NCBI GenBank assembly: GCA_027036015.1
Contig: JALVTH010000074.1
Span: 1 to 64,000, forward strand
From: Campylobacteraceae bacterium
GTDB lineage: Bacteria; Campylobacterota; Campylobacteria; Campylobacterales; Sulfurovaceae
DNA length: 64,000 nucleotides
Direction: 5' to 3'
Position 1 is the first letter of the stretch, and each line of letters begins with the position of its first letter. The notes beneath the pieces are model-generated. The model did no database searches. It was not told the origin of the DNA and saw nothing but the letters and a program-made list of their open reading frames with translations. Shown piece after piece: positions 5,922-44,200 of the stretch. The position numbers were made by a program, and so were the translations under genes.

Positions 5922-7412
5922 TTAAATGTGCGTAGCAACGATAAGTTTTGTAATATAACTCATTAAAGGCTGAATGTAAAAAATTGAAGTTATTGTGACA
6001 AATGCTGCAAATCCAATTACTGTTTGAAGCGCTAAAGTTCTGTTTGCATAGACAATTTGTCCATCTTTTACAATCGCTGGTTTTAAGAACATATAAACAA
6101 TAAGTTTTAAATAATAATATGCTGCAATAGCACTATTTAAAGCCATAATAAGAGCAACTGTATAATATCCTTTATCTACAATTGCACTAATTACATAAAG
6201 TTTACCCCAAAAGAGACTAAATGGAGGAACACCAGCTAAAGAGAGCATAAAAATTGCCATAATTACTGCTGCAATTGGTGCTTTATGAATCATACCAGCA
6301 AATTTTTCGTATGGATGATGATATCTTTCGTGAAATCTTGCTGTTTTTCTTCTACTAATCCAAAGCATTGCAAAAGCACCAAGATTTGTAAAAAGGAAAA
6401 GTCCATAATACATAAAAATCGACGCATACCCTTTTGTAGAATCAAGAGCAACTGCTACCATAATAAAACCAGCATGTGATATTGAGCTATAAGCAAGCAT
6501 TCTTTTTACATCTTCTTGGACAAGTGCCATCATGTTTGAAACGGTTGTAGTAACGATTGCTAAAGCTATAATAACATATTTAATAAGTGTAATATTTAAA
6601 TCAAAATATAAGCTAAAGACACGAATTGCAACAACCATCATTGCAATTTTTGGAACGATAGACATATATCCTGCCATTGGAGCTGGAGCACCCTCATATG
6701 CATCAGGCGTCCACATATGAAATGGAATAAGTGAAACTTTAAAGCCTATTGCAACAAGAAGCAATAATGCTGCTCCAGCTATAGGAATAATGCTTCCAGC
6801 CTCATGGATTCTTTCTTGAAAAACTTGAGCAATCGTATGTAGCTCTACTGAACCAGTTAGTCCATAAAGTGCAGCTGAACCCATAGCATAAAAGCCTGCT
6901 GCCATTGCACCCATTGTAAAGTATTTTACTGCTGCTTCAATTGAAGGCTTAGTATTATGCATTGCAATAAGTGGATAAAGAGCCAACGAAGCAGTCTCAA
7001 GCCCAACAAAAATTAAAATTAAATTATCACTACTTACCATAAATTGAAAACCAAAAATCATAAATAAAAACATTGCAAAAAATTCTGGATAGGAAAATTC
7101 ATGAAATCGCTTTTTCGTTAATGCAAGTGGAATAAAAAGTATCGATCCAATTAAAATAATTAAATTCCCTAACACGGAAATTCCATCAATTAAAATTAAA
7201 TCAAAAAGCCCTCTACTATTTAACTTTACACTCGTTGTTGCACCAAAAGCAATAAAAAGCGTTAAAATCGTTAAGGTAACATAAAGCGACTTATCCAAAT
7301 TTGGCTTAATTAAATCAATAATTAAAATAAGCAATGCTCCAGCTAATGTAACAAGCATTGGTGCAAGCGTTACTAAATTAAGTGCATCATAATTTATTGC
7401 AATAGGCATCAT
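5922..7412 (-). CDS. nuoN: NADH-quinone oxidoreductase subunit N
   Basis: Antiporter-like subunit; last gene of nuo order. Confidence 0.93.
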   Translation of the reverse strand: MMPIAINYDALNLVTLAPMLVTLAGALLILIIDLIKPNLDKSLYVTLTILTLFIAFGATTSVKLNSRGLFDLILIDGISVLGNLIILIGSILFIPLALTKKRFHEFSYPEFFAMFLFMIFGFQFMVSSDNLILIFVGLETASLALYPLIAMHNTKPSIEAAVKYFTMGAMAAGFYAMGSAALYGLTGSVELHTIAQVFQERIHEAGSIIPIAGAALLLLVAIGFKVSLIPFHMWTPDAYEGAPAPMAGYMSIVPKIAMMVVAIRVFSLYFDLNITLIKYVIIALAIVTTTVSNMMALVQEDVKRMLAYSSISHAGFIMVAVALDSTKGYASIFMYYGLFLFTNLGAFAMLWISRRKTARFHERYHHPYEKFAGMIHKAPIAAVIMAIFMLSLAGVPPFSLFWGKLYVISAIVDKGYYTVALIMALNSAIAAYYYLKLIVYMFLKPAIVKDGQIVYANRTLALQTVIGFAAFVTITSIFYIQPLMSYITKLIVATHI

Positions 7413-8938
7413 TTTTTAATCTCCTTTAGCGCTTTACTTACATGTATCGTAGCCTTAGCCTCTTTTGTTTGAGCTTTTTTATGCATGAATGCAACTAAAG
7501 CCTTAGTAGATGTATTAATTGGCTCTAAGATAGGTTTTGGGTAAATACCTAACCAAATAACAATTGCCACAAGAGGAATAAGGGCAAATTTTTCTTTTAA
7601 ATCTAAATCACTTAAGTGTTTGTTCTCTTCTTTTGTAATTGGGCCAAAGAAACTTTTTTTCAAAACGCTTAACATATAAACTGCACCTACAATAATTGAA
7701 GTTCCTCCAATTACAGTCAATATTGGAGATACTTTAAAAAATCCAGCTAAGGAGAGGTATTCGCCAATAAATCCAATTGTAAGTGGAAGTCCAACTGATG
7801 CCATCGTCATAATTCCAAAAATAGTTGCATATGTTGGCATAACACTTGCAAGCCCTCCAAATTCACTCATTAATTTTGTATGACGTCTATCATAAATGAC
7901 TCCAACAAGCATAAAGAGTGCTCCAGATACAATTCCGTGAGAGAGCATCAAGAAAATTGAACCGCCAATTCCTTCTACATTCATTGCAAAAGTTCCAAGA
8001 ATGATAACGCCCATATGTGAAATTGAACTATATGCAATAACTTGCTTCATATCCTTTTGTGCATAAGCAACCATTGCTGTATAAATAATCATAATAAGCG
8101 CAATAATAGCAATTGGTGTAATGTATGCCACTGCTGCATCTGGAAATAGTGGTAACGAAAATCTTACAAAACCATAAGTTCCCATTTTAAGTAAAACGGC
8201 AGCCAAGATTACCGAACCCACTGTTGGTGCCTGACCATGAGCGTAAGGAAGCCATGTATGGAATGGAAACATTGGAACTTTGATTGCAAAACCAAGGAAA
8301 AAAGCAATAAATAACCACTTTTGTAAATCAAGCGGTAATACCATCTTATACCAATCAGTTAACGCAAAGCTCCAATGACCTGTTGTTTTATAGTAAAGAT
8401 ATCCCATAAATAAAATACCAACAAGCATTACAAGTGAACCAGCAAAGGTATAAATAAAGAACTTAATTGCTGCATAAAGTCTCTTATCACCACCCCATGC
8501 ACCAATAATATAAAGCATAGGAACAAGAGAAAACTCCCAAAAAATGTAAAATAAAATTACATCTAATGCAACAAAGACTCCAACCATCGCCACTTCTAAA
8601 AAGAGCAACGTAATAATCATATTTTTAAGATCTTTTTTTACGCTTAAACCAACGATTCCAAGAAGCGTCATAAGTGTTGTCATAACAATAATAAATAAAC
8701 TAATACCATCAACACCCAAATAATAATTAATTCCAAAGCTTGGAATAAGTGGAATAAATTCTTGAAATTGCATTCCAGGATTACTTCCATCAAAACCAAA
8801 CCAAAGCCAAAGCGAAAGTAAAAACTCTATCGTTGCCACTGCAATACCATAAACTCTAATACTCTTTTGGTTTATTAAAAAACCCAAAAGTCCCGCTACT
8901 AGAGGAAAAAAGATTAATATACTTAAAATGTGCGACAT
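7409..8938 (-). CDS. nuoM: NADH-quinone oxidoreductase subunit M
   Basis: LGVDGISLFIIVMTTLMT, FWEFSLVPMLYIIGAWGG, HTWLPYAHGQAPTVGSVILAAVLLKMGTYGF. Confidence 0.96.
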   Translation of the reverse strand: MSHILSILIFFPLVAGLLGFLINQKSIRVYGIAVATIEFLLSLWLWFGFDGSNPGMQFQEFIPLIPSFGINYYLGVDGISLFIIVMTTLMTLLGIVGLSVKKDLKNMIITLLFLEVAMVGVFVALDVILFYIFWEFSLVPMLYIIGAWGGDKRLYAAIKFFIYTFAGSLVMLVGILFMGYLYYKTTGHWSFALTDWYKMVLPLDLQKWLFIAFFLGFAIKVPMFPFHTWLPYAHGQAPTVGSVILAAVLLKMGTYGFVRFSLPLFPDAAVAYITPIAIIALIMIIYTAMVAYAQKDMKQVIAYSSISHMGVIILGTFAMNVEGIGGSIFLMLSHGIVSGALFMLVGVIYDRRHTKLMSEFGGLASVMPTYATIFGIMTMASVGLPLTIGFIGEYLSLAGFFKVSPILTVIGGTSIIVGAVYMLSVLKKSFFGPITKEENKHLSDLDLKEKFALIPLVAIVIWLGIYPKPILEPINTSTKALVAFMHKKAQTKEAKATIHVSKALKEIKK

Positions 8939-8947
8939 TCCCTCTCC

Positions 8948-10843
8948 TTATTTCACTACAACTGAAATTAGCGCAATTAGGCTAATAAATATTAAACCAA
9001 ACGCCATCCACTTCAAATAAGTAGATAAGTTACCATTTTGTGCACGGCGACTCACGTCTCCTGTTACCTCAACAGCTTTTGCAATACCATCAACAGTTGC
9101 ATCCACAATTTCTTGATCTATCTCTTTCCATGCAATATCTGATAGTTCTTTATATGGTTTAGCAAAAGCTTTTTCGTAAAAAATTGGTATGTAATATTGG
9201 TTAAAAAGTAATTTATATAAAAAGCTATTTTCAACTTTTGGATCTCTTCTAAGTCCATTGGCATATTTTTTATATGCAATGAAAATACCAGTTAAGGCAA
9301 TACCCATAGTTACAATAATGAAAAACCAAACTAAATGTTCTGTATGCTCACTCATTTCATATGGAGGCAAGAATTTTGTAATGAATTCAACAAACTCTTC
9401 TTTAAAAAATCCAGCAATCACAGCAAGCACTGCTAAAGGAGCCATAGCCCAAAGAGCGTAAGGTTTTGCTTCGTGCGGATGAATGCCAAGTTCATGAAAT
9501 CTTTCATCACCATGGAATACCAAGAATACTTGTCTAAAACTATAAAACGCGGTTAAACCAGCAGTAAACCAAAGCACAAACCAAATTCCATAAGTTTCTT
9601 CGTTAAATGCTACTTCTAAAATGGTATCTTTTGAGAAAAATCCAGCAAATGGATAAATACCAGAAAGGGCAAGCGATGCAATTCCCATCATTAAATAAGT
9701 TTTAGCCATATATTTTTTCAAGCCACCCATTTTAAACATATCAAGTTCATCATGCATTGCATGCATTACGTTACCAGCACTCAAAAATAAAAGTGCTTTA
9801 AAAAATGCATGTGCGGCTAAGTGAAAGAGAGCTACCCAATATGCACCAAGCCCAGCTGCTGCAAACATATAACCAAGTTGCGAAAGGGTTGAGTATGCAA
9901 TAACACGTTTTAAATCTCTATTTACAAGCGCCATTGAAGCGGCAAAAATTGCTACAAAAGTTCCAAGAACTGCAATAAAATAACCAACTCCTGGAATTTG
10001 GCTATAGAGTGGATTTGCTCTAATAACTAAATATACCCCGGCAGTAACCATTGTAGCAGCATGAATAAGGGCTGATACTGGTGTTGGACCTTCCATTGCG
10101 TCAGCAAGCCAGGTATGGAGTGGAAATTGAGCCGATTTCCCCATTGCTCCAATAAAAAGTGCAATACCAATTGCTACTAATAAACCATGATTTAAATTTG
10201 GAATTGCTGCAAAAAAATCATTATATTTTAAGCTACCAACATTCCAAAAGATTAAGAAAATCCCAATTAAAAGCCCTAAATCCGCAATTCTATTCATAAT
10301 AAAGGCTTCATTTGCTGCCCAAGATGGTGAGATTGATGGATTAACATCTCTTGTTTCATCTTTTTTATAATACCAAAAGCCAATAAGTAGCCAAGAACAA
10401 ACCCCAACGCCTTCCCATCCAATAAATAGACCTAAAAAGCTATCACTCATAACAAGCACAAGCATTGAGAAGACGAATGCTGAAAGATAAGAGAAAAATC
10501 TATTAAAACTCTTATCGTGTTCCATATAATAGTTTGAATAGATATGAACAAGAGCTGAAACGAGTGTAACAACAACCATCATAACCGCCGTTACGTGATC
10601 GACTGTAAAGCCAAACTTAACGTTCATATCTCCAATAACAATCCAATCAAATAAAGTAGCATGCACTATCTTATTAGTTTGCATCAAATAAACAAGTAAT
10701 TCAACCGATGCAAAGAAAGAAAGTGCAATAAGAATTGACGTAATAATCCCAACTAATTGAATCTTTTTTTGCTGCGCAAAAATTGCAGCAAAAAGCGAAC
10801 TAACAAGCGGAGCAAATAGTGCTATATATAAGTAACTTTGCAT
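8948..10843 (-). CDS. nuoL: NADH-quinone oxidoreductase subunit L
   Basis: FIGWEGVGVCSWLLIGFWY, HTWLADAMEGPTPVSALIHAATMVTAGVYLV. Confidence 0.97.
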   Translation of the reverse strand: MQSYLYIALFAPLVSSLFAAIFAQQKKIQLVGIITSILIALSFFASVELLVYLMQTNKIVHATLFDWIVIGDMNVKFGFTVDHVTAVMMVVVTLVSALVHIYSNYYMEHDKSFNRFFSYLSAFVFSMLVLVMSDSFLGLFIGWEGVGVCSWLLIGFWYYKKDETRDVNPSISPSWAANEAFIMNRIADLGLLIGIFLIFWNVGSLKYNDFFAAIPNLNHGLLVAIGIALFIGAMGKSAQFPLHTWLADAMEGPTPVSALIHAATMVTAGVYLVIRANPLYSQIPGVGYFIAVLGTFVAIFAASMALVNRDLKRVIAYSTLSQLGYMFAAAGLGAYWVALFHLAAHAFFKALLFLSAGNVMHAMHDELDMFKMGGLKKYMAKTYLMMGIASLALSGIYPFAGFFSKDTILEVAFNEETYGIWFVLWFTAGLTAFYSFRQVFLVFHGDERFHELGIHPHEAKPYALWAMAPLAVLAVIAGFFKEEFVEFITKFLPPYEMSEHTEHLVWFFIIVTMGIALTGIFIAYKKYANGLRRDPKVENSFLYKLLFNQYYIPIFYEKAFAKPYKELSDIAWKEIDQEIVDATVDGIAKAVEVTGDVSRRAQNGNLSTYLKWMAFGLIFISLIALISVVVK

Positions 10844-10846
10844 GCC

Positions 10847-11152
10847 TTACCCTTTTAAGAGATTTAAATCGTCTAAATCTAAAGTGCCATACTTTTTGTA
10901 AACTAAAATCAAAAGCCCAAGTCCAACGGCAACTTCACTTGCTGCAATTGCAATGATAAATAGTGCAAACATTTGTCCCGTTAAATCGCCCATATAGCTC
11001 GAAAGTGCTGCTAAAGCCACATTTGCCGCATTTAGCATAATCTCTGTTGCAAAAAAGAGCATTAAAAGATTTTTTCTTCTAATAACCCCGGTTAATCCTA
11101 TAACAAACAAAATAACTGCTAAAATTAGATACTCACTCAACCCTACACTCAT
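10847..11152 (-). CDS. nuoK: NADH-quinone oxidoreductase subunit K
   Basis: Small 3-TM protein, FATEIMLNAANVALAALS, ASEVAVGLGLLILVYK. Confidence 0.96.
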   Translation of the reverse strand: MSVGLSEYLILAVILFVIGLTGVIRRKNLLMLFFATEIMLNAANVALAALSSYMGDLTGQMFALFIIAIAASEVAVGLGLLILVYKKYGTLDLDDLNLLKG

Positions 11153-11712
11153 TTTTGCTCCTTCATTTCATGCTCTTCTACCAAATAATCGTCACTCTCA
11201 GACAAACTAACTTCCATCTTTTTGCTTGCTAAAACAATTCCGGCAATCATTGCTACAAGAAGCATTACTGCAGCAACTTCAAATGGAATCAAATATTTTG
11301 TAAAAAGCACCGCCCCAATAGCGTGAGGATTATCCATTCCTTTTGGAGTGGCAAGTAACGCTCTTACGTTGTGTCCAATCTGCGGAGCTGCAAAAATAAC
11401 AACTAAAATAAGAGCACTTAAACCGCTCAGTAAAAATACTGCCAATGGTGCTTGATTTTTCTCTTTAATGTCTCTTGTAGCATCAAAAAACATCATACCA
11501 AATGCATAAAGCGCCATTATCGCTCCAGAATATACGACAAGTTGCACCGCACCTAAAAAATCGGCTCCTAAAACAAAATAAAGCCCCGAAATTAAAACCA
11601 TTCCAGCTGCTAGTGCACTCATAGCATAAAGAACGTTTTTACTAAATACCGTTACTAAAAAGAGTGCGGTAATTAAAATTCCAAAAACATAAAATGCAAT
11701 CGCTTCCATCAT
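11149..11712 (-). CDS. nuoJ: NADH-quinone oxidoreductase subunit J
   Basis: AVQLVVYSGAIMALYAFGMMFF; gene order. Confidence 0.94.
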   Translation of the reverse strand: MMEAIAFYVFGILITALFLVTVFSKNVLYAMSALAAGMVLISGLYFVLGADFLGAVQLVVYSGAIMALYAFGMMFFDATRDIKEKNQAPLAVFLLSGLSALILVVIFAAPQIGHNVRALLATPKGMDNPHAIGAVLFTKYLIPFEVAAVMLLVAMIAGIVLASKKMEVSLSESDDYLVEEHEMKEQK

Positions 11713-11719
11713 CTCTCCC

Positions 11720-12337
11720 TTAATAAGCTAACGGCGTTTTTTTGATATTTTCGTCTGCATTTGGTGAAATAGCGCCAAATCCAGGATACTCTTTTTGCTC
11801 TTTGAGTTTATCTATTGGCGTTAACATATCTTCAAAGAGACTAAAACTTGCTCTTTGTTCACTTGCAGTCTCATAGCGTCCACCATGAGTAATTGCAAGC
11901 TCAGGACAAACTTCGGCACAATATCCGCAAAAGATACATCGCCCAAAATTAATAGTATATTCAACTACCTCTTTTCTTTGATTCTCATCGTATCGAGTAT
12001 CCATTCGAATACAATCTGAAATACATATCTTTTCACAAAGCCCACATCCAATACAGCGATAATGGCCACTCTCAAGTAATCGCTTCATTTCATGAATTGC
12101 TCTATATCTTGGAGAGATAGGTAACTTTTCAAGTGGATATTTAACTGTATGCATCTCTCCCATAAAAAGAGCTTTAAACATCTCTCTAAAAGTAACTTTA
12201 AGTCCAACAAAGAGCTCTAATTTTACTGAGCGCTTTAATACTCTTTTAAATTTACCCCAAGCAGTGGTTGGGGTTGGCTCAAGCTCTATAAAACGATAAT
12301 TTTGAACTCCAACTCTTTTTTTCTCACTCATTGCCAC
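11720..12337 (-). CDS. nuoI: NADH-quinone oxidoreductase subunit I
   Basis: Two 4Fe-4S motifs CIGCGLCEKICISDC and CIFCGYCAEVCPELA. Confidence 0.96.
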   Translation of the reverse strand: MAMSEKKRVGVQNYRFIELEPTPTTAWGKFKRVLKRSVKLELFVGLKVTFREMFKALFMGEMHTVKYPLEKLPISPRYRAIHEMKRLLESGHYRCIGCGLCEKICISDCIRMDTRYDENQRKEVVEYTINFGRCIFCGYCAEVCPELAITHGGRYETASEQRASFSLFEDMLTPIDKLKEQKEYPGFGAISPNADENIKKTPLAY

Positions 12338-12340
12338 TCC

Positions 12341-13330
12341 TTATACCATCATCACAATACCAGTAATTAAAATATTAAGTACCGCAAGCGGCATTAATAC
12401 CTTCCAACAAAGCCACATCAATTGATCAGGTCTAATATGAGGCCACGCTGCACGAATCCAAAGCATTAAGAAAAAGAAAAATGAAACTTTCAAAATAATT
12501 GCAATTCCTCCAGGAATAAATCCAAGTGGGTTAAATCCTCCAAGGAAAATAAGTGAAGCTAAAAATCCAATGGTAATCATATTTGTATACTCACCAATGA
12601 AAAACATACCCCATCTCAAACCACTATACTCAGTGGCATACCCAGAAATAATTTCTGCTTCATGTTCAAGTAAATCAAAAGGTGTTCTGTTTGTCTCAGC
12701 ATAACCAGAGATTAAAAAGAGAATAAATGCTAAAGGCTGTTTCCATATAATCCAATGGCTAATGCCACCAGCTTGATAGTTGTTAAAATCAATTAACGAA
12801 AGTGATCCAACCATCATTATAGGAGCTAAAATCGATAAACCAGTTACAACTTCATAACTTAAAAATTGCACAGCGGTTCTTGCACTCCCTAAAAGCCCCC
12901 ATTTATTCTCTTGCGCCATACCAGCAAGAAGTGGTCCATAAAGTCCAACTCCCATCATAGCAATAACAAAAAGCAAACCAATGTTTAAATCAGAAACAAT
13001 TGGTCTAACTTTTATCCCAAAAATGGTAAATTCTGGTAAAAGTGGCACTGCAGCTAACGCAATAAATGCAGTTGCAGCCGTAATTGCTGGAGCAATCATA
13101 AAAATGATTCTATTTGCTCCTGCAGGAATAAAATCTTCTTTGGTAAATAGCTTAATACCATCGGCTAAAATTTGTAAAAGTCCATAAGGACCTACATGAT
13201 ATGGTCCAAGACGGCGTTGCATAAATGCAAGAACTTTTCTTTCAAGATATGTTCCAAATCCAGCTAACGCTGAGAGAATTAACAAAATCAAAACTGCTTT
13301 AATAATCGTTCCAATAATATATCCATCCAT
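12341..13330 (-). CDS. nuoH: NADH-quinone oxidoreductase subunit H
   Basis: ERKVLAFMQRRLGPYHVGPYGLLQILADGIKLFTKED; EYSGLRWGMFFIGEY. Confidence 0.97.
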   Translation of the reverse strand: MDGYIIGTIIKAVLILLILSALAGFGTYLERKVLAFMQRRLGPYHVGPYGLLQILADGIKLFTKEDFIPAGANRIIFMIAPAITAATAFIALAAVPLLPEFTIFGIKVRPIVSDLNIGLLFVIAMMGVGLYGPLLAGMAQENKWGLLGSARTAVQFLSYEVVTGLSILAPIMMVGSLSLIDFNNYQAGGISHWIIWKQPLAFILFLISGYAETNRTPFDLLEHEAEIISGYATEYSGLRWGMFFIGEYTNMITIGFLASLIFLGGFNPLGFIPGGIAIILKVSFFFFLMLWIRAAWPHIRPDQLMWLCWKVLMPLAVLNILITGIVMMV

Positions 13331-13333
13331 CGC

Positions 13334-15799
13334 TTACACCTTTGTTATTTTTACTTGAGCATATCTATTTTTGCCAAAGAGTGAGTATACATCCATCTCA
13401 GCCTTAAAATCAGGCACCTCAACAATATCGCCACTAAGTCTCTCATCCACTTCAACAGGCAATTCAAGCCCTTCACCATTTTCAAACTCAACTTTAACGA
13501 ATTCTCCAAGCTCCTTTGCTTTCTCTGGCGATACATAAAGCGCAAATGGCTCAAAAATTTGATGCGCTTTATCGGTAAAATCGTTAAATTGTCGTTGCGG
13601 ATTGCAGCGATATGCAATTTGGCCTTCAAGTTTGCTTTCACTAAACTCTTCTATTATAACTTCTTCTTTATCAACTGGCATATTTGCTAACACATAGCCT
13701 CGATGCTCACTCATATCATTTGCAAAATAGTTTGGTAAATCATCAAATTTTGCTACTTGATATCCTTTTTCAACTGGAAGAGCTTCAGTCCAATCAATCG
13801 TTAAATTTTTGCCAAGACCAAGTTCATTCATAATATCATTGAGTTCATATCCTTCATAATCTAATGCGGCATTTAATGGAACAACACGTTTATTCATATT
13901 AGTTGTTGTTCCTTCTTGCTGATTCATTGCTGGAATATCAAAATCTCCATCACCAAGTGCTGAGATTTTAAAATCACCCGGTTCATTATATCCTACAACA
14001 AAGCCCTCTTCATTCTCATCTAAATCGCAAATTAAAGCAACACCAAGTGCATTTGATTTTGGAGGAATAAAGGCAACTTTAAAATCTGTTGTTTCTTCAA
14101 ACAGTGCTACAAGTTTTGCTAAATTTGCTGCTTTTGGATGGAAGTAAAAATCTTCCCCAACAATAAGAGCAAAATCTTCTTTTTTCTTTAATGCTTTTTC
14201 AAACTCTTCATTAAAGTTTTCTACATCACCACCAAGCTTTTCAACTAAAAGATTTGCTTCATATTCCACCTCTTTTTCTTCAAAACTTGGCACTTTTTTC
14301 TTCACCTCTTTTTCTTCGCCGCTTTCTTTATCAACAACTTTTTCTACTACCTCTTTCATTACTTTTTCTTTTACTTTTTTCACTCGTTTTTCTTTAAAAG
14401 AGGCTAATTTTTCTTTAATTTCACTTGGTAGTTTTTCTTTATCGGCAAATAAATCAAGCAATAAAAGCATTACATACTCTTCATCACCCACTTTATGGTT
14501 AAATACCGATACACTTTTACCAAAAGTTGGAACCAATGTATCACCAACAGGATGAAAATAAAATCCAGCACCTTTATTAATTTTTTGAATATTGTTAAAA
14601 AGATATCTGGCAGCTGGATTATCATTTCTTAATTTTGCTCCAACACTGACAATAAAATCGCTACTGCTCATATCTTTAAAACTATTACTATAGAGCATTT
14701 GCCCTTTTGCCTTGCCATAGACTTTGAGAAAATTTTGGAAAGGCTTTACTTCTTTATTCACAAGTTTAATGCCAAACTTTTCTTTAAGCGTTTGAAGCAT
14801 GAGTGCTTCTTCGTTTGTAATCATTGAATTAAAGCGAATAGTTTTTGCTTTTTTAATTGCTTCAACAGCTCTTTTTAGAGCATTTGGGTCTTTTTTTACA
14901 TTTCTATTTTCATAATCGTATCCAAAGCGCCCTGCTCCACAAAGAGATTGATAGTGGAATTCATTTTTAATTCTAAAAATTTTCTCACTTGGATCATCAA
15001 TTGATGTAAATCGTGTTTCATAGTAGAGATGACAAGCGCTTGAACAGTGTGCACATGCACTTGGAACTTCTCTAAGCTCCCATGGATTTGCCTTGTAGAT
15101 AAAATCTCTCTCAGTTAGTGCTCCAACTGGACAAACGGCCGTGCACTCTCCACAATCACTACAATTTGTATATTCAGTACCATTGCTTGGAACAATAATT
15201 GATTTTTGCAACTTATTCCACATTGCATAAGCATCTTTTGGCATTGTTTCTTTGTAAGACTTATCAAGCTTATCACCGCCTCTTGGTCCAGTTTTGAGTG
15301 CACTATCACCAATCATATCTTTGCAAACAGTAACACAGCGCTCACAAACAATACAAAGCCCTGCATCATAGTGTAACACACTACTCCAATTTTTTGTTTC
15401 ACGCTTTGTATCAGCAATTGCGTAGTGTTGTTCATCAACTTCCATCTCAAGCGTGTAGTTTTGTAACTCACACTCACCATGCTGATCACAAACGCCACAT
15501 TGTAATGGGTGGTTTACATCATAAACCTCCATAATTGCACGGCGCTCTTCTAAAATCTCTTCAGTTTGAGTTACAATATTCATGCCATCTTTTGCTTTGG
15601 CATTACAAGCATAAACTCTTTTACCATCAGCCTCAACTAAACACAAACGACAAGCAAGAGTAGGTGAACAACGAGTTAAATAACAAATTGCCGGAATAAA
15701 AATTCCATTTGCTCTGGCAATATTTAAAATATATTCACCCTCTTTTGCTTTGCATTCAATTCCATCTATTGTAATTGTTATCTCTTTACTCATCGCCAC
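13334..15799 (-). CDS. nuoG: NADH-quinone oxidoreductase subunit G, paralog 1
   Basis: N-terminal 2Fe-2S and HPLQCGVCDQHGECELQN; CIVCERCVTVC, CSDCGECTAVCPVGAL, CAHCSSACHLYYE. Confidence 0.92.
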   Translation of the reverse strand: MAMSKEITITIDGIECKAKEGEYILNIARANGIFIPAICYLTRCSPTLACRLCLVEADGKRVYACNAKAKDGMNIVTQTEEILEERRAIMEVYDVNHPLQCGVCDQHGECELQNYTLEMEVDEQHYAIADTKRETKNWSSVLHYDAGLCIVCERCVTVCKDMIGDSALKTGPRGGDKLDKSYKETMPKDAYAMWNKLQKSIIVPSNGTEYTNCSDCGECTAVCPVGALTERDFIYKANPWELREVPSACAHCSSACHLYYETRFTSIDDPSEKIFRIKNEFHYQSLCGAGRFGYDYENRNVKKDPNALKRAVEAIKKAKTIRFNSMITNEEALMLQTLKEKFGIKLVNKEVKPFQNFLKVYGKAKGQMLYSNSFKDMSSSDFIVSVGAKLRNDNPAARYLFNNIQKINKGAGFYFHPVGDTLVPTFGKSVSVFNHKVGDEEYVMLLLLDLFADKEKLPSEIKEKLASFKEKRVKKVKEKVMKEVVEKVVDKESGEEKEVKKKVPSFEEKEVEYEANLLVEKLGGDVENFNEEFEKALKKKEDFALIVGEDFYFHPKAANLAKLVALFEETTDFKVAFIPPKSNALGVALICDLDENEEGFVVGYNEPGDFKISALGDGDFDIPAMNQQEGTTTNMNKRVVPLNAALDYEGYELNDIMNELGLGKNLTIDWTEALPVEKGYQVAKFDDLPNYFANDMSEHRGYVLANMPVDKEEVIIEEFSESKLEGQIAYRCNPQRQFNDFTDKAHQIFEPFALYVSPEKAKELGEFVKVEFENGEGLELPVEVDERLSGDIVEVPDFKAEMDVYSLFGKNRYAQVKITKV

Positions 15800-18071
15800 T
15801 ACCCACTTTATTGATATTTACTTTTTTAAATCTATAAGAGGATACCCAAAAAGCACTTAAGCCCATATCAAATATTGGGTTTAGCGCTATGGTTCCTTTT
15901 AAAGATGTATCAATCCTAAACACTCTTGTTACCTTTTTACCATCCATCTCAAACTCCACCCTATCTCCATCGTTAATTTTTGCTGCAGTTGCAAACTGCT
16001 TTGAGCCAATAAGAGTAGCTTTGCTTTGTAATAAGTGGCTCTTATTGGTAAATGGATTTGGGTTTTGTGAAGGATTTACACAGTATACAATAGTTCCATC
16101 AAAACTCTCAAGATCCGCAACCTCTTCAAGTTCAAAATTAACTTCAACTGTTACATTTCTTAACTTATACCCTCTTAAATCTTCTCCATGAACGCTAAAA
16201 GCATTAGGAGAGAGTTCATCAAACTCAATTGACTCAAAACCTTTTTCTTTTGGTAACTCTTTTGTTAAATCAATTGTTAAATCACTTCCAACGCCAAGCT
16301 CTTTGGCAATATCATTTAAAATATAGCCATCATAAGGCAATGCAACATTGAGTGGAACAACTTGTTTATTAATGGTTGTAATTGTCCCTTCAATTTGATT
16401 AAAAGCTGGTAAATCAAAATCTCCATCACCTAAAGAGCTTAGAGTAAAGTCTCCTGGAGCATTTACTCCAACAACAAAGCCTTCTTTTTCTTTTTCTAAA
16501 TCACAAATTAAGCTTACTCCCAAACTATTTGAAGCTGGAGGAATGACGATTAATTTAAAATTGGTGTATTTTTCAATTAAAGCAATGATTTTTGCAATAT
16601 TTTCAACTCTTTCGTGATTGAAAATATCACTACCAATAATCAGGCTAAAACGCTTTCTCTTCCAAAAATCAAGTTTCAAACTCTCAATTTCTTCTTCTGA
16701 AACACTACTTTCAGCACTCAAATAACCAATATCAAGTTCATCAATAAAGGCTTTGATTTTGCTATCAAGCTCTTTATCTCTTGTTAAAAATTCAAGCAAC
16801 ATTGCAAGCACGCCTTCTTCGCTGCCTGCTTCATACTTAATAAACCTTGTAACCAAATTCTGAATTGTATAATCTTCAATTGGATGCATATAGATAACTC
16901 TTGCTTTATTGCGTTTAGAAGCCATTGCAATGTGATTTTTCACCATTGGGGCATCTTGCGCAATTTTGCCACCAAAGCTAATAATTACATCTGATGTGGC
17001 AATATCTTCTAATGTTCCATCCCAAAGCATCTTGCCACTGACACTTGAATAAGCTTTTAAAAATCGGCTTAGGCCATAACTATCGCTACAAACTAATTTT
17101 GCGCCAACTTTTTTTGCAATTTTACTTAAAAGCAAAGCCTCTTCATTGCTAATGTAAGAAGAAAAAGCAATAGTATCAGCCTTTTTAAAAGCTTTAATTG
17201 CTTCTTCTAACTTTCTTGAATCTTTAAAAGCTGTTTTATTTTCAAAATCAAATCCAAAGCGTCCTGCACCGCATAGGTTGCTAAATTCAAACTCATTTGT
17301 AACACGATAGATTTTTGGTTCAGGATTATCAATGCTTGTGTGTTTTACTTCATAATAGAGCTGGCATCCAGCACTACACATTGCACAAGCACTTGGAATC
17401 TTCTCAAGCTCCCAAGCATTTGAGCTATATTTAAAATCACTACTAACAAGTGCTCCAACTGGACAAACTGCCATACACTCACCACAACTTACACAATCAT
17501 TGTCTGGTTTTGTATTAACAATTGTTGATTTATATCCACCAACACTAATTTGTAACTGTTCACTTCCTACAATTTCATTGCAAACTCTTACACACTTTTC
17601 ACAAAGGATACAAAGTGATGGATCATAACTAATAAAGCCCCAATTTTGCACTGGTCGATGCATCTCTTTAGCCGTGAAATCTTGCTCGTCCACTTCAAAT
17701 TCAAGCGTTTTATTTTGCAAATCACACTCACCACTCTTATCGCAAACCCCACACTCAAGTGGATGGTTTACATCATAAAGTTTCATAATGTTTTGGCGCT
17801 CGCGAAAGAGTGCTTGGCTATTTGTTGTAATTTTAGCCCCATCTACGGCTTTTTCTTGACAAGAGAGAACGAAGCCATCAACCCCTTCAACTTCTACAAC
17901 ACACATTCTGCAAGAAGCTATGGGTTCAACTTTGGTTAAATAACACATTGTTGGAATATAAATTCCATTCTCCCTTGCAATTTGTAAAATTGATTTGCCA
18001 TATTCGGCTTGAATTTCTTTCCCATCAATTGTGATAGTAATTGTTTTTTTCGTTTCTTTTACCGCACTCAT
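15786..18071 (-). CDS. nuoG: NADH-quinone oxidoreductase subunit G, paralog 2
   Basis: Same architecture as 13334..15799; internal start MSAVKETKK at 18071 follows the upstream stop by 1 nt, better than the ORF start at 18140. Confidence 0.92.
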   Translation of the reverse strand: MSAVKETKKTITITIDGKEIQAEYGKSILQIARENGIYIPTMCYLTKVEPIASCRMCVVEVEGVDGFVLSCQEKAVDGAKITTNSQALFRERQNIMKLYDVNHPLECGVCDKSGECDLQNKTLEFEVDEQDFTAKEMHRPVQNWGFISYDPSLCILCEKCVRVCNEIVGSEQLQISVGGYKSTIVNTKPDNDCVSCGECMAVCPVGALVSSDFKYSSNAWELEKIPSACAMCSAGCQLYYEVKHTSIDNPEPKIYRVTNEFEFSNLCGAGRFGFDFENKTAFKDSRKLEEAIKAFKKADTIAFSSYISNEEALLLSKIAKKVGAKLVCSDSYGLSRFLKAYSSVSGKMLWDGTLEDIATSDVIISFGGKIAQDAPMVKNHIAMASKRNKARVIYMHPIEDYTIQNLVTRFIKYEAGSEEGVLAMLLEFLTRDKELDSKIKAFIDELDIGYLSAESSVSEEEIESLKLDFWKRKRFSLIIGSDIFNHERVENIAKIIALIEKYTNFKLIVIPPASNSLGVSLICDLEKEKEGFVVGVNAPGDFTLSSLGDGDFDLPAFNQIEGTITTINKQVVPLNVALPYDGYILNDIAKELGVGSDLTIDLTKELPKEKGFESIEFDELSPNAFSVHGEDLRGYKLRNVTVEVNFELEEVADLESFDGTIVYCVNPSQNPNPFTNKSHLLQSKATLIGSKQFATAAKINDGDRVEFEMDGKKVTRVFRIDTSLKGTIALNPIFDMGLSAFWVSSYRFKKVNINKVGSGDE

Positions 18072-18072
18072 C

Positions 18073-20085
18073 TTACACCGCCACCATTGCAATATAGTAA
18101 CAGCGCATACAGCGCTCAGCTTCAGCAATTGCTTGCTCACCTGTTAGACCTAAATTTACCTCTTTATTATTGGTAATTCTCTCACTAACACTTAATTTTT
18201 CGCTAACTTCTCTTGGTATTCCTGGCATCCAACCTTTGATTTTTTCATTTTTATTATAAACGCCAAGTTTTTTAAGATGATCTTCCATAATCTCTTCATC
18301 AGTTAAACTTACTTTGCCATCATAAATATAGCGGCTAATAACGCTTGCTGCTCTTTTTGCCTGACCAACAGCATTTACAATTGTCATTGGACCATATTCA
18401 CAATCTCCAGCAGCAAATACGCCAGGTTTTGAGCTCATATAATCGCGTCCATTGGTTAAAATGGTATTCCAGCTGGTTAGCTCAATATTCCACTCTTCAG
18501 GCAAAATGCTTAAGTCCGCACTTTGTGAAACTGCTGGAATTAAGAAATCACACTCAATTTCAAAATCTGCCCCTTCAATTTTTACAAGTTGCGGACGCCC
18601 TCCATTTGGATCTGGCACTAACTCAAAGCGATTGACTTTAAGTTTTTTGAGTTGATCGTTTTCATCTGTGATAATTTCTTCAACAGCTGAGTAGAAAATA
18701 AATTCAACTCCTTCTTCTACAGCTTCATGATACTCTTCCCATGAAGTGTTTCGAATAATTGTCTTTTCATCACGGCGATAGAGCATTATTACTTTTTTTG
18801 CACCCTCTCTTACGGCACAGCGCACGACATCCATCGAAGTAAATCCACCACCAACACAAACAACAACTTTATCTTTTAACTCTTTACTTGCTGGTTCACC
18901 AATTTTATATTTGTGCCATAGGTTTACTCTATCAAGCATTGCTATAGCACCCCAATAACCTTTTATCTCTTCACGCTCATTTTTTGCACGAATTTTTTTA
19001 GAAAGTCTTGTTCCAAATGCAAGTAAAATAGCATCATACTCTTTTTCAAATTCTCTAAGCATATTGGCATCAACTCTTGTGTTGGTGTGCACATGCACTG
19101 TTGGAAGCGACGTTACAAGTTCAATATCTTTATTGTATTTTTCAATTGGCATACGATACTGCGGCACTCCAACAGCAACCTCACCTCCAAGCACTGGAAG
19201 CTCTTCAAAAATATGCACTTCAATACCTTCAAGCCCAAGATAGTATGCTGCAGTAAGTCCAGCTGGTCCACCACCTACAATTGCAACTTTTTTGCCATCA
19301 TTTCTTGGAGGCTTAGGCTCTTTTGGATGAAACCAAGCAAGATTATGATCTGTTTCATAATCTGCGCCAAGACGTTTAAGCTCCATAATAGCAATTGGCT
19401 CATCAAGATTTGCTCTTCTACATGCATCTTCACAAGGGTGAGGACAAACTCTACCACAAGTGTGAGCTAAAGGCATCGTTTGGCGCGTTGCTTGAAGCGA
19501 TGCACCAAATTCTAAGTCTCTAACGCCCTCAATGTAAGATGGAATATCAACGTGGGCTGGACACATATCCATACAAGGAGCAGTTACTTTAGCAATATAA
19601 CTTGTATTGCTCTCATATTCGTGTGATTTTTTTTGCTCTAAAATACAAGCATCAAATTGCTCTTTATAGTGTTCCATCAAATCTAAAATTGGTTTTGGAA
19701 CAGTTCTTCCAATCTCGCATTTGCTCGTTTCCATCATTGTGCGACTAACTTCTTGCAAATGCTCAATATCTTCAAAGTTTCCTTCGCCTCTTGCAATTTT
19801 ATCTAATAAATCAAACAAAATTCTTCCACCCCATCTACCAGGCGCACAGCGACCGCAAGCTTCGGAGTATTTTTGATAGGTTGCTGCATATTCAGTGGCA
19901 AGCTTTACTGCATCTATATTTTCATCAAAAATTGCAACGCCATCCCATCCAATAAACGCACGGCTTGGCTTATCTTTGTTATATTCAAGTGGGAAGCTAA
20001 AGCTACTTTCTACCCACTCTTCTTGAGGCTTATTGCGATTGTCAATAAGCTCTCCACGCCAAGTCGAAAATACTACTTTAGACAT
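18073..20085 (-). CDS. Chimeric complex I input subunit: NuoF C-terminal 4Fe-4S-like domain fused to a GltD-like FAD/NAD(P)H oxidoreductase
   Basis: EACGRCAPGRWGGRILFDLLDKIARGEGNFEDIEHLQEVSRTMMETSKCEIGRTVPKPILDLMEHY (NuoF C-domain pattern), then APCMDMCPAHVDIPSYI...CGRVCPHPCEDACRR, VAIVGGGPAGLTAAYYL and VVCVGGGFTSMDVVRCAVREGAKKVIMLYRRDE. Confidence 0.88.
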   Translation of the reverse strand: MSKVVFSTWRGELIDNRNKPQEEWVESSFSFPLEYNKDKPSRAFIGWDGVAIFDENIDAVKLATEYAATYQKYSEACGRCAPGRWGGRILFDLLDKIARGEGNFEDIEHLQEVSRTMMETSKCEIGRTVPKPILDLMEHYKEQFDACILEQKKSHEYESNTSYIAKVTAPCMDMCPAHVDIPSYIEGVRDLEFGASLQATRQTMPLAHTCGRVCPHPCEDACRRANLDEPIAIMELKRLGADYETDHNLAWFHPKEPKPPRNDGKKVAIVGGGPAGLTAAYYLGLEGIEVHIFEELPVLGGEVAVGVPQYRMPIEKYNKDIELVTSLPTVHVHTNTRVDANMLREFEKEYDAILLAFGTRLSKKIRAKNEREEIKGYWGAIAMLDRVNLWHKYKIGEPASKELKDKVVVCVGGGFTSMDVVRCAVREGAKKVIMLYRRDEKTIIRNTSWEEYHEAVEEGVEFIFYSAVEEIITDENDQLKKLKVNRFELVPDPNGGRPQLVKIEGADFEIECDFLIPAVSQSADLSILPEEWNIELTSWNTILTNGRDYMSSKPGVFAAGDCEYGPMTIVNAVGQAKRAASVISRYIYDGKVSLTDEEIMEDHLKKLGVYNKNEKIKGWMPGIPREVSEKLSVSERITNNKEVNLGLTGEQAIAEAERCMRCYYIAMVAV

Positions 20086-20318
20086 TAGTTACCCTTTTTG
20101 CGAACTACTATTGTCCAATCAACTTCGTTAAATTTTAAAGAATTTAACAGCTCATGGCCATGTTCTTTGATAATATCAGCACTTTTTTGAATGGGAGAGA
20201 AATCACCAATTTCAAATAAGAAAATCCCAACTTCGTTTGGTCGTAAATCGGTATCGATTAATTCAATCATTCTATCGTAAAAATTTTCATGTAAATGTCT
20301 TAGATCATACCTTTTCAT
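20085..20318 (-). CDS. Short NuoE-position protein (77 aa, no cysteines), like the Cj1575c-position gene of Campylobacter
   Basis: Position between nuoD and the NuoF-like gene; translation has no Cys. Confidence 0.75.
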   Translation of the reverse strand: MKRYDLRHLHENFYDRMIELIDTDLRPNEVGIFLFEIGDFSPIQKSADIIKEHGHELLNSLKFNEVDWTIVVRKKGN

Positions 20319-20329
20319 CTTCGCTCCTT

Positions 20330-21565
20330 TTAGCGGTCAACTTCACCAAATACAATATTTGTACTACCAATAATTGTTACAACATCAGCCAAATAAGTTC
20401 CCACTAATAAATCTTGCAATACTCCTGTATGAAAAAAGCTTGGGGCTCTCACTTTTAAACGATAAGCATATGGTTCACCCTCTGATTTAATGTAAAATCC
20501 AAGTTCACCTTTTGGAGATTCTGTTGGAACATAAACAGTTCCTTTTGGCGGACGCATACCTTGTGTTACAAGCACAAAATGCTGCATTAGGGCATAGTTT
20601 TGTGTCATAATCTCTTCTTTTGGAGCAGAAATGTATTTTGGAGCGTGTGCCATGAGTTTTGGTTCAGTTTTTGGATACATAGAAATAAGCTGTCGTAAAA
20701 TCTTAATTGATTCGTAAATCTCTTCCATATAAAGGCGATATCTTCCATAGCTATCACATCTATCAGTTACTGGAACATCAAAATCAACTTCATCATAAAG
20801 TTCGTATGGCTCTTCTTTTCTTACATCATATTTAATACCAGAGCCTCTAAGCATAATACCAGTACAACCCCACTCAAGTGCCATCTCAGGAGGCAATATT
20901 CCAACATTTTCTAAGCGCATTTTCCAAATTCTGTTTTCTTTTAATAAATCATCGTAAAGTTTAATTTGATCTGGTAATTTATTTAAGTAGTTGCTTAAAT
21001 TTTCAATCCATCCTGGTGGTAAATCAAGCGGCACACCTCCAATTCGAACGGCTGAGTGCGTCAATCTTGCCCCACAATAATCTTCCATTAAATCCATTGC
21101 AAATTCGCGCTCTCTAAAAGCATAAAGGAAAATCGACATCGCTCCAACATCGAGCGCGTGCGTTGCTAAGAAGAAAAGATGCGAAATAATTCTGTTAAGC
21201 TCAAGCAGCATCATACGAATTACTTTTGCACGTCTTGGCACTTTATCTTCAATTCCAAGAAGTCGCTCAACTGCTAAAGCAAAAGCATAGTTGTTTGAAG
21301 TTGCTGCAATATAATCAAGTCTATCTGTTGTTGGTAAAAACTCATTATAAATCATATTTTCAGCCATTTTTTCTACGCCACGGTGCAAATATCCAATATC
21401 TGGATATGCTTTTACAACCTGCTCTCCTTGTAATTCTAAAATTAAACGAAGCTGCCCGTGCGCTGAAGGATGTTGTGGCCCAAAGTTAATAACCATTGTA
21501 TTATCATCACGCTCAAAATTAATATTTTCAAAAAATGGTCGTAATTTATTTACTTGTTGCTGCAT
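20330..21565 (-). CDS. nuoD: NADH-quinone oxidoreductase subunit D
   Basis: [46 protein letters not shown]. Confidence 0.97.
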
Positions 21566-21573
21566 GGCTTCTC

Positions 21574-22374
21574 CTATTTTCTATTCTCAAGCTGCTTAGA
21601 CTCTTTGGTATAGTCTGTAAGGAAGGTTTTTGAATATCCATCTTCTATTGGTCTGATAGTAGAATCTACTAAGCTTGGATCTGCACCAAAAGGCACCTCG
21701 TGACCAACTCTTGCAAAGCGTTTTGTATCGTATCTATCTATTCTTGCTGGATCTCTATTTTCTGGTCCAATAATGTCGCGATACTCTTTTCCAAAAATTT
21801 TATCAACTTCATACCATTGTGCATGTTCATCACCATGCAATGGATAAGTTTTTCTAAGTGGATGTCCTACCCAATCATCAGGCATAAGAATACGTTTTAA
21901 GTTTGAATGGTTATTAACATAAATACCAAACATATCATACATTTCACGCTCTGCAAAGTTTGCCATTTTAAAAACTTTTTCAACGCTTTCAATTGCTTGG
22001 TTTTCTTTAATTCTGGTTTGAACTCTTACTCTTTTTGCTTCGTCTAAATTAAGCAAAAGATAAAAAATCTCAAATTCACCATCTTGAGCTAAATAATCTA
22101 CTGCACTAAGCTCCGTGCACATTTTAAAACAACTTTTCTCTTTTAAATTTTTTAAAGCCGCAACATTTTGCTCTGGTAAAATTTCTACAACAAGCATTCC
22201 AAGTTCGATATAGCTTTTTAAAACCTCAACGCCATCTTCTTGCAAAGTTTTTACTACCTTATCATAAAAAGAGCCTTCTCCAACTGGCTCTTTTTTTGTT
22301 TCAGGTGCAACCCAAAATCTATCTGTATATTTTGCTTTTGCTTGAACGTTGTCTTTTGGTGTATATCGTCTCAT
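21574..22374 (-). CDS. nuoC: NADH-quinone oxidoreductase subunit C
   Basis: [43 protein letters not shown]. Confidence 0.95.
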
Positions 22375-22886
22375 TATATCAACCTTTGCAATTTATTTTT
22401 TTTCATATTTGCAGATTGGCGTCTAATTTTCTTTTGAAGCATCATCACTGCATATTGCAATGTCTCTGGACGCGGTGCACACCCTGGAAGATAGATATCA
22501 ACTGGAACAATTCTATCTACCCCTTGCACAATTGAATAGGTATTAAACATACCACCAGTATTTGCACAAGAGCCCATACTAATAACCCATTTTGGTTCAG
22601 CCATTTGGTCATAAAGTCTTCTGGTAAATTCAGCATGTTTTTTCGTAAGAGTTCCAGCTAAAATCATTACATCTGCTTGTCTTGGCGAAGCTCTAAAAAT
22701 AACACCCATTCTATCAAAATCATATCTACTTGCCCCACTTGCCATCATCTCAATTGCACAACAAGCCAAACCATACGTTAGAGGCCACAATGAGTTTGAA
22801 CGCCCCCAATTGATAATATGATCTACTGTGGTTAATACAACCGGTAACCCGCCGCTTGAAGTATAATTTACTTGATGCTGTGCCAT
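22374..22886 (-). CDS. nuoB: NADH-quinone oxidoreductase subunit B
   Basis: [55 protein letters not shown]. Confidence 0.97.
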
Positions 22887-23257
22887 TCTAATGCTCCTTT
22901 AACCCATGCATAAATAAATCCAATTGCAAGTAATACAATAAATAAAATCATCTCTACAAAACCAAAAACACCAAGAGGCTTAAAATCAATTGCCCATGGA
23001 AACATAAACACAATCTCTACATCAAACAAAATAAAAAGTAATGCAAAAAGGTAAAACTGCACTGAAATACTGTTTGCTTGCTTGTTTGGTTCAGGACCAC
23101 ATTCATAAATTGCAAGCTTTAACTTTTCGGTATCGAGTCTTGCCAATTTTCTACTAATAAATCGCTGCAATACCAAAGTTGCAGGAAATGCAATTGCCGT
23201 TAAAGCAAATAAAACGAAAGCACCAAAATAAGGATGCTCGGTTACAATATGCGTCAT
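22868..23257 (-). CDS. nuoA: NADH-quinone oxidoreductase subunit A
   Basis: [39 protein letters not shown]. Confidence 0.96.
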
Positions 23258-41294: not shown

Positions 41295-44200
41295 TTATGG
41301 AACTACTAAATCTACACTAAAATAATAACGTTTCTTTATTCTATCTTCTTTATGCCACATTTTAGCATCTATTGTAAATGGTGCAATGCTTTTATACTCT
41401 TTAGAGCTTACTAAATTTGGATTATCTTCGCTAAAGTATTTAATGCTAAGAGTATTATCCCAATTGGCAACAAGAGCTGTATTCATTTTGTAATTGCTGT
41501 TATTATATGCTCTCAAATGCATAATAAATTTATTACCCTTTTCATCAGTAACTGGCACGTTTAATATTGAATATCCTCTTTTCCACCAAACACCGCTTGT
41601 TGGTCCTATGCTGCTTTTTAGAGCTACAAAATAGACAGAAGTTTCGCTATCTTTTATTGTATCTGCGCTATACTCTGTTTTATCTATGGTTTTGCTAATC
41701 CCCTTCATTAAATCTTTTACATTTAATACAACTTTACCCATATTTTCTTCGTTATTTGTAACTCTTTTTTTAACATGCAAAATAACTCTTTGGCGTGATG
41801 TATAGCTTCGTTCCTCTGCCAAATTATTATCTTCGTTACTAATCCACGCAACAATTTTAGTGCTACTTCCATCTACCTCGCTTGGGTCGTTTATCTTTAA
41901 AAGCTTTCCATTGCTGAGCACTTTTGCAATTCTAACAATTATATCTTTATCATTGCCCAAATCATCAACCGATGCCACAGTAAGCGTAGAATAACCATCT
42001 TTTCCTCTATCTGCCGGACTTAATTCTTTATCTTCTCCAATTTGTTTATCTACAGTTATATAAATTGCTTTGGCATTTAGAGTAAACTTTTGCACGCTTT
42101 GGCATCTGCTTAAATTGTTATCTAAGCAGATATCGTTTACATTCACCTGTGCAAGCGGTTTTGTCAAGTCGCGTTCCAAAATTTTGCTATATATATCAGA
42201 GCGTTTTTTATCGCTAATTTGTGCCGAATCTGTCATCTCTTGCAGAGTATCAAAAAGCTCCGTTTTATTAATATCTCTAAAGTTTACACCTTTAAAATAG
42301 TCGTTATAATTTCCGCTTGACTTATTGTTTAAAAATCTCTCAAAAAGCTCTGTAACACTCTCTTTAAAGGCACTTTCATCCTGCTCTTTTACCAAATGGT
42401 AATTTGCCAAAAATCTGTTTTGGTCTCTGTAACTTCTCGTTGATCTGTAATTTTTTTCATACTTATCCAGATAGTTCCAAAGCTGCTCTTTTGCCCATGC
42501 TGCTCTCTCGCCTTTGCCGCCGTTTACACTAGGCGCTAAATTTATGGCAAAAGCGATATTTTTACCTGTTACAACCTCTAAATTATCTGCTCCTTTGCGA
42601 TTATTAGGCTCCATAAAAAAGCTCTCTCTTTTTTGCATATACTCATTTGCAAGAGCAATAATTTTTTCAGGCTTATCAAGTTTTGCATAATATAGAGCCA
42701 ACTGATACCACGCATCAACATTTTGCGGCACTAGCTCAACACTCTTTTTAAGCAGAGCTTCAGCACTTGCAGAGCCTTCTTTTTCCATAAGTTTGGCAAT
42801 ATGCTGCAGTATCATAGATTGGTTGTATTTATGCTCTCCTGCACTTGCTGGACTAACGCCTGTAACTACACCGGTAAATCGCTCTAAAGAGCTCTCTCTA
42901 ATAGCGCTTGTATATTGATTATAAATTGTATTACTATGAGGCGTAGCCGATTCCCTAGAACCAACTTTATAACCGATTGTTGTATAGAATTGATTAGGAT
43001 TATCTTTGCTTATAAATACTCCTACCCATGCTCTGTGTCCAGGTTGCCCTGTACCGATACTTGGACGGTTTAAACACTCATTAGTATGCTGCCCCATTGT
43101 AGATTGCCGTCCGCACACACCTCCATCTTGCAAAACTCTGTAATAACTTCTTCTTGGCACCCAATCGCTCTTTCTAAACCAAACTTCTGGCTTATCGTAA
43201 TCCCAAGTGTAAGTGGTATATTGAATAAATCTCTTTTCTGCTTTCTTCCCGCCGTCAACTGCATTTGGCGGATAGCTATCTCGCAATTTAGCTTTATCGG
43301 TTTCAAAAAAACGGCTTTTTATATACTCACACTCTTTCTTTTGTGCACTCTGTTCAAGTGCCAAAATCTGCCAAGGCAAATTCTCTAAAGAGAAGTTAAA
43401 TATCGGCCAATTTGGTTCATTGTCATTAAAATCTTTTGCCGAAATGTTATCGTTGGCAATTTTTAAATTTGCCAAATCGTAAAATGACATAAGTCTATAC
43501 TCACTTTGCTCTTTTGGCCAGACACCAATCAAACCTGCTAACTCCCAATTCATATTGTCTTTTGGAGCAATTAAACCAATTTTGTTTTTATACTCTTTAA
43601 AGTGAGCTAAAATATAACTTTTTGTAACTGTTTCATTGTTTTCACTCTCGATAAATGCATCAATTTTGGCACAAGGGTTGCCATCTTCATAACAATTTGC
43701 TCTTTTTAACCCGCTTAAAACTCTATAAACATTTAATTCATCAAACGAAATATTGTAAGTTTTTCTAATATCCGGGGTAATGGCCTCAATTGTATATCCA
43801 TCGTTAAATGCCCTTTTTAGCTTTTCTCCTGCTGTGCGGATAGAGTCTTTTTCGCTTCTTGAGAGTTTATAATGAACATAAAGCATATTGATAAATTTCG
43901 ATTTACTCACACCGTAACCCAAATTTTTAAAATCAAAATGCTCTAACCAGCGTCTCTTTTTGGCTTCCATTTTAGGAATATCCAAATAATCCACAACTTT
44001 ATGGTCACCCGTGTCCCCAAAAATCGCCTCTTCAAAAATACCCCGCTCTTTTGCATTTATTGCAAGTCCTAAAGCTACATTTTTATACTTTTGAATAAAG
44101 GCATCACTCTTGCCCTCTTCTTTCCATTTACTTAAAAAATCGCCCAAATTTTTAATGCTATATGGATTTACCGGGAATCTCGAAGCATAAAGCCCCTCTT

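Follow-up and report, generated by a model that had tools for sequence, protein, structure and literature searches.

The window, by which we mean the whole 64,000-nucleotide stretch of DNA analyzed here, comes from a 1.69-Mb genome in 79 contigs that is 100% complete. On its minus strand, between positions 5922 and 23257, lies a nuo operon for complex I with the gene order A, B, C, D, E', F', G1, G2, H, I, J, K, L, M, N, in which Pfam finds the core subunits NuoB, C, D, H, and I together. The operon starts with nuoA (22868..23257, assigned by position and sequence), nuoB (22374..22886) and nuoC (21574..22374), both recognized by Pfam, and nuoD (20330..21565). At its other end, nuoH (12341..13330) and nuoI (11720..12337), again found by Pfam, are followed by five ORFs assigned to nuoJ, K, L, M, and N by position and sequence (5922..11712). 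Between nuoD and nuoH stand the four genes that we call E', F', G1, and G2, with F' in the nuoF slot; the closest named F' loci come from Nitratifractor and Sulfurovum assemblies. Elsewhere, the window carries a glutamate dehydrogenase gene (62164-63525), a possible NADPH consumer, and a predicted 1782-aa lipoprotein (41295-46643) with cadherin/Ig-like and PA14-like repeats, as judged by eye.

F' (18073..20085, minus strand) starts with ATG and encodes a 670-aa flavoprotein that the ORF list, Pfam, and NCBIfam describe as a fusion of a NADH_4Fe-4S domain to a GltD-like module. Residues 64-146 (19648..19896) form a NuoF-type N3-cluster domain that matches PF10589 (NADH_4Fe-4S) with 70 bits against a cut-off of 23.5 and aligns with NuoF/HydB chains. 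Residues 168-247 (19345..19584) match the [4Fe-4S] domain Fer4_20 (PF14691, 81 bits), and residues 265-576 (18358..19293) hold the FAD and NAD(P)H Rossmann domains (PF07992, Pyr_redox_2, 92 bits). Both profile matches anticipated by the preliminary description, of the N-terminal part to PF10589 and of the remainder to Fer4_20, are thus significant. The NCBIfam NuoF model (TIGR01959) matches F' from residue ~32 on and over model positions 296-409 only, so the FMN/NADH half of NuoF is truly absent from F'. Whole-genome searches found PF01512 (the FMN/NADH domain) neither in F' nor anywhere else in the genome, of which F' is the sole PF10589 protein and the sole Fer4_20 protein. The genome has no credible NuoE; its lone PF01257 match scores 25.7 bits and covers a fragment within a ferredoxin-like protein of 126 aa, encoded on a different contig. 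Earlier claims that only the C-terminal cluster domain of NuoF is kept in this slot and that its FMN/NADH part is missing therefore hold, with the correction that three of the four N3 cysteines are present, and the genome searches found no canonical nuoEF elsewhere. The existence of 80 loci at 70-89% identity rules out F' as a one-genome oddity or an assembly join.

Across 70 F' sequences, the cysteines at 77, 80, 123, 171, 175, 210, 214, 218, 222, 659, and 662 are invariant. Cys77, Cys80, and Cys123 are N3 ligands in an alignment to HydB/NfnB chains; at the expected fourth-ligand position, the third Cys of CGxCxPC is replaced by Gly83 in 70/70 sequences, and Lys122 and Glu124 are invariant as well. 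With three of four Cys at the N3-type site, its cluster is possibly altered or absent, and the electron wire could break there; by sequence, the site may use a non-Cys ligand, hold a 3Fe form, or lack the cluster. The Fe-S domain of the GltD module is circularly permuted: PfNfnL residues 12-45 align with F' residues 629-662, Fer4_20 profile positions 2-29 match at the C terminus in relatives, and the C-terminal CMRC (Cys659 and Cys662; 18100..18111) is the permuted CxxC of this domain. The predicted ligand set for two GltD [4Fe-4S] clusters is complete, with eight invariant cysteines (the permuted pair and Cys171, 175, 210, 214, 218, and 222) and Lys237. The complete GltD module of the preliminary description is hence correct in its domains and its FAD and NAD(P)H sites and incorrect in the order of its N-terminal Fe-S domain, one CxxC of which has moved to the C terminus.

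The NAD(P)H site contains GGGFTS (412-417), which is not a clean NADP motif, and YRRD (436-439), in which Tyr436-Arg437-Arg438 are invariant in 70/70 sequences; the arginines presumably hold the 2'-phosphate of NADPH, as in the family at large. By residue counting on alignments, Lys237 (70/70) aligns with StnC K170 and NfnL E126, and Arg311 (70/70) aligns with NfnL R201 and StnC R239. The Glu at the proximal cluster of NfnL keeps the two branches coupled (PMC9503767), whereas in StnC, which has Lys, NADPH electrons pass linearly through the clusters to a NuoG-type chain and bifurcation has been lost (PMC10482914). A single-chain AlphaFold2 model, made with 44 close relatives in the alignment, has a mean pLDDT of 72.9; the NuoF-type helical domain and both Rossmann domains are well modeled, and the Fe-S region is of low confidence (pLDDT < 50), so we give no cluster distances. 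For F', Foldseek ranks the A subunits of NfnABC and StnC first (E 4e-34 to 1e-31), followed by NfnL and GltD; among solved structures, F' is closest in both sequence and fold to the GltD portions of Nfn-Bfu and Stn (9bov, 9n5u, 8oh5). These likenesses point to a GltD part of the StnC/Nfn-Bfu type, with linear, non-bifurcating NADP(H) chemistry. The NADPH-type motifs also favor the initial proposal of a chimeric input subunit that would likely accept a donor other than NADH.

The 77-aa E' (20085..20318) matches PF16514 with 140 bits and is an orthologue of Helicobacter pylori HP1264, of the FMN-binding type and with no conserved Cys; FMN binding has been reported for HP1264 (PDB 2LXR), a member of this family without conserved Cys (PMC6269979). 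E' lies >200 bp, and up to ~800 bp, upstream of F' in 14 of 76 loci. Downstream of F' are two NuoG proteins: G1 (15786..18071), a second NuoG with full cluster ligands, and G2 (13334..15793), the NuoG that adjoins nuoH and is retained in F'-less relatives. We followed their linkage in 40 loci across Campylobacterota and in 80 further named loci. Among the 40, G1 adjoins F' wherever F' is present, and each F'-less locus has a single NuoG and an ORF of 231-339 aa between E' and NuoG. Among the 80, F' is followed by G1 in all 64 testable cases and then by G2 in 51 of 52. The exception (L079, 1112-6683) reads E'-F'-G1-nuoH without G2, either a real loss or an assembly effect, and indicates that electrons need not pass through both NuoGs in series.

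The short protein in the F'-less loci is related to G1. Its profile scores 171-248 bits to all G1 and 15-87 bits to G2, and HHalign pairs it with G1 columns 342-764 (probability 100, E 9e-66) with an internal gap of ~120 columns. G1 carries N1b, N5, N4-type, and N7 ligands (26 sequences, 3 of which lack one four-Cys set), whereas no conserved Cys is kept in >4 of 21 short proteins. In one F'-less locus (L113), E' is 98.7% identical to HP1264, so its short ORF corresponds to HP1265; the organism-type labels of the other loci are inferred from E' and the literature. On this sequence evidence, subunits of the HP1265/Cj1574c type are NuoG1 proteins that lack the Fe-S half. The preliminary description held that Campylobacter and Helicobacter use replacement genes at the nuoEF position; this is right for E', which is shared (HP1264, PF16514), and wrong for the second gene, which is a remnant of G1 and not a counterpart of F'. 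We also observed that G1 of three loci from the window's own family (L137, L138, and L152) has lost four of the eight Cys of the ferredoxin-like domain and that G2 of the Campylobacter, Sulfurospirillum, and Arcobacter types has lost the N7 ligands (CCCC replaced by NS..), whether F' is present or not.

Phylogenetic trees indicate that F' was lost repeatedly. The G2 tree requires at least four changes between F' and F'-less states, also when only well-supported branches are counted. One of these switches falls inside the window's own genus, where the window genome and an F'-less genome (G207) are sisters with 100/100 support. G207 has E', a short protein, G2, and nuoH in place, and its nuoD is 87% identical to that of the window; a whole-genome search found neither PF10589 nor PF14691 in it. 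On a tree of the region common to G1, G2, and the short proteins, the short proteins are scattered among G1: the Arcobacter type stands beside Arcobacteraceae-type G1 (support, 79), the Campylobacter/Sulfurospirillum types form one clade, and the Helicobacter type is placed elsewhere. A single origin of the short protein was rejected by the AU test (P = 0.021; P = 0.007 for all but L153, the G207 copy), and a joint clade of the Arcobacter and Campylobacter types was compatible (P = 0.35). Loss of F' with truncation of G1 explains the short-protein state far more simply than the repeated return of an entire Fe-S half. The short protein of G207 groups with the window's G1 at a support of only 70%, and its highest-scoring individual BLAST segments match other families; it may have been imported rather than truncated in place. 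G207 also contains part of another nuo locus (L154), whose short protein is Sulfurospirillum-like; this locus is either a second operon or contamination.

Among 397 Campylobacterota genomes, 332 have E' (PF16514) and 193 have PF10589. The single PF10589 match is of the F' kind in 97 genomes, where F' is thus the sole protein with this domain, and of the canonical NuoF kind in 64; 32 genomes have two or more matches. The two kinds were split by match score and checked by open-frame length where listed (641-703 aa for F' versus 407-583 aa). F' occurs in many families and is missing from most of family f6 and, in this sample, from all of family f10, where canonical NuoF is found instead, in agreement with the two complexes I of Sulfurospirillum multivorans (PMC4585668). 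The window's genome has ATP-citrate lyase and no PntB by genome search, so its NADPH must come from another source. ATP-citrate lyase is present in 79 of the 97 F'-only genomes versus 6 of the 64 canonical-NuoF-only genomes, counts that are inflated by shared ancestry; within f6, the numbers are 6/6 and 0/31. A strict tie of F' to autotrophy is ruled out by family f2, with F' in 16 genomes and ATP-citrate lyase in none, and by the reverse case of G207, which has ATP-citrate lyase without F'.

Parts of this arrangement are found in known systems. Nfn-Bfu and Stn (NfnABC, 9bov and 9n5u; StnC, 8oh5) share with F' the FAD GltD module, the permuted C-terminal CxxC, and the proximal-cluster Lys, where bifurcating NfnL has Glu126, and F' has equivalents of Lys170, Arg239, and the C-terminal CxxC of the StnC/Nfn-Bfu A subunit. 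They likewise run a linear wire into NuoG-type clusters, which for F' is a prediction. However, their GltD is fused to NuoG rather than to a NuoF cluster domain, they have a bifurcating FMN NuoF/NuoE pair that is absent from the F' genome, and they stand outside complex I, whereas F' is in a complex I operon. Canonical NuoEF (TIGR01959, PF01512, PF01257) has the operon position and the PF10589 domain in common with F', whose locus differs in lacking the FMN/NADH domain, the 2Fe-2S NuoE, and one of the four N3 Cys. The complex I of Campylobacter and Helicobacter (Cj1575c-Cj1574c, HP1264-HP1265) has the same operon, E', and G2 but has lost F' together with the Fe-S half of G1, and the short protein, a G1 scaffold remnant, accompanies a single NuoG in place of F', G1, and G2. 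A Collinsella aerofaciens protein (WP_195568673.1) has the same domain order, PF10589-PF14691-PF07992-CxxC, and an adjoining NuoG-like partner, so the architecture is not unique to Campylobacterota. This fusion adjoins an [FeFe]-hydrogenase of group A whose N terminus is NuoG-like; unlike F', the fusion belongs to a hydrogenase operon and keeps four N3 Cys (SCGKCTPCR).

F' might work in the same place as NuoF but on NADH, as a non-homologous replacement of the NuoF NADH site. It does replace the NADH subunit, as the only such input in 97/397 genomes; its GGGFTS motif is not diagnostic, and NADH-dependent GltD enzymes are known (PMC8097209). The invariant YRR, however, is the motif of NADPH-type GltD/Nfn/Stn proteins, and the closest solved relatives of F' use NADPH, which makes NADH use unlikely. 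Even less credible is a bifurcating or confurcating unit that couples NAD(P)H, ferredoxin or flavodoxin, and quinone. The NfnL-type fold, in which Arg311 corresponds to a conserved Nfn arginine responsible for tuning the bifurcating flavin, and the need of reverse TCA (rTCA) autotrophs for reduced ferredoxin would suit it, but an equivalent Arg is also present in non-bifurcating StnC, which shares with F' a Lys instead of Glu at the proximal cluster. The genome, moreover, lacks both FMN-NuoF and 2Fe-2S NuoE, E' has no conserved Cys, and the ORFs of the nuo operon include no NfnS partner. We thus abandon the earlier suggestion that F' bifurcates electrons and regard it, with good confidence, as non-bifurcating.

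The genome carries gltB (1460 aa; L170:2938-7320, contig G000:C73) without an adjoining gltD, and F' is its only Fer4_20 protein, so F' could be the GltD of glutamate synthase, located among the nuo genes by chance or serving two functions. This we consider exceedingly improbable. We reject it because several genomes have a normal GltD of 464-469 aa alongside F'; moreover, the N-terminal domain of F' is NuoF derived, F' is almost always linked to G1, both F' and GltD are missing from G207, and the window encodes a glutamate dehydrogenase. The glutamate synthase of the window genome, with gltB and no separate gltD, may be ferredoxin dependent. A more serious competitor, though still doubtful, is that a tip made of F' and G1 alternates with a G2-only one, giving two kinds of complex I on one membrane arm. 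It differs from our preferred reading in assembly alone, and our confidence in the two overlaps. G1 has all NuoG cluster ligands and in L079 adjoins nuoH on its own, as this arrangement would have it, but every F'-less genome examined keeps the G1 remnant together with G2, which suggests that both belong to one complex.

We favor, with a probability of about 0.6, the view that F' and G1 make up a detachable module for NADP(H) input to a complex I that can otherwise be fed by flavodoxin or ferredoxin. The operon has no NuoF NADH site and has a GltD-type NAD(P)H site on a NuoG-docking piece of NuoF, of which NADP(H) input is the simplest reading. That F' is an input subunit of complex I is very probable; that it prefers NADP(H) over NAD(H) is likely. 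In this model, the GltD part would bind FAD and most likely NADP(H), and electrons would leave FAD one by one and follow a linear path to G1, over the two [4Fe-4S] clusters of the GltD part and then the cluster domain derived from NuoF. From there they would reach NuoI, NuoB, and menaquinone, probably via G2; for the whole series F' to G1 to G2 we see not quite even odds. Flow would be possible both ways, and in this ATP-citrate lyase (rTCA) genome, the likely net direction would be proton-driven and reverse, from menaquinol to NADPH. The removable cassette would comprise F' and the Fe-S half of G1; upon its loss, the G1 scaffold half would stay as the HP1265/Cj1574c-type protein and, with E', make a flavodoxin- or ferredoxin-fed complex. 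Flavodoxin is the electron donor of the Campylobacter complex I (reviews, PMC6682613 and PMC4178425), and since E' and the G1 scaffold outlast F', we infer that these are the flavodoxin/ferredoxin entry and that F' and the G1 clusters are an added pyridine-nucleotide entry. A dual-input complex I with two NuoGs, which takes NADP(H) via F' and G1 and flavodoxin or ferredoxin via E' and the G1 scaffold on G2, is a tentative extension that we hold to be possible rather than probable.

Searches of the open-license literature found nothing on F', on a pair of nuoG genes, or on an origin of HP1265 from NuoG, although prior notice is possible. As far as this literature can be searched, a PF10589-GltD fusion as a complex I input with an obligatory NuoG1 partner, its altered N3 site, and the origin of HP1265/Cj1574c may be new. 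The sources of NADPH and reduced ferredoxin in rTCA Campylobacterota, dominant at hydrothermal vents, are an unsettled question; an NADP(H) module built into complex I would answer it directly and lends itself to tests on membranes. Should the dual input be true, one proton-pumping machine would make both NADPH and reduced ferredoxin or flavodoxin from menaquinol for the rTCA cycle, and separate reductions of this machine would have given rise to the Campylobacter, Helicobacter, Arcobacter, and Sulfurospirillum types. The HP1265/Cj1574c subunit of Helicobacter and Campylobacter is explained as a cluster-less relic of a second NuoG, not a new NuoF, reached independently several times upon the loss of F'. 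The input modules of complex I thus look exchangeable, and close relatives with and without the module are natural pairs.
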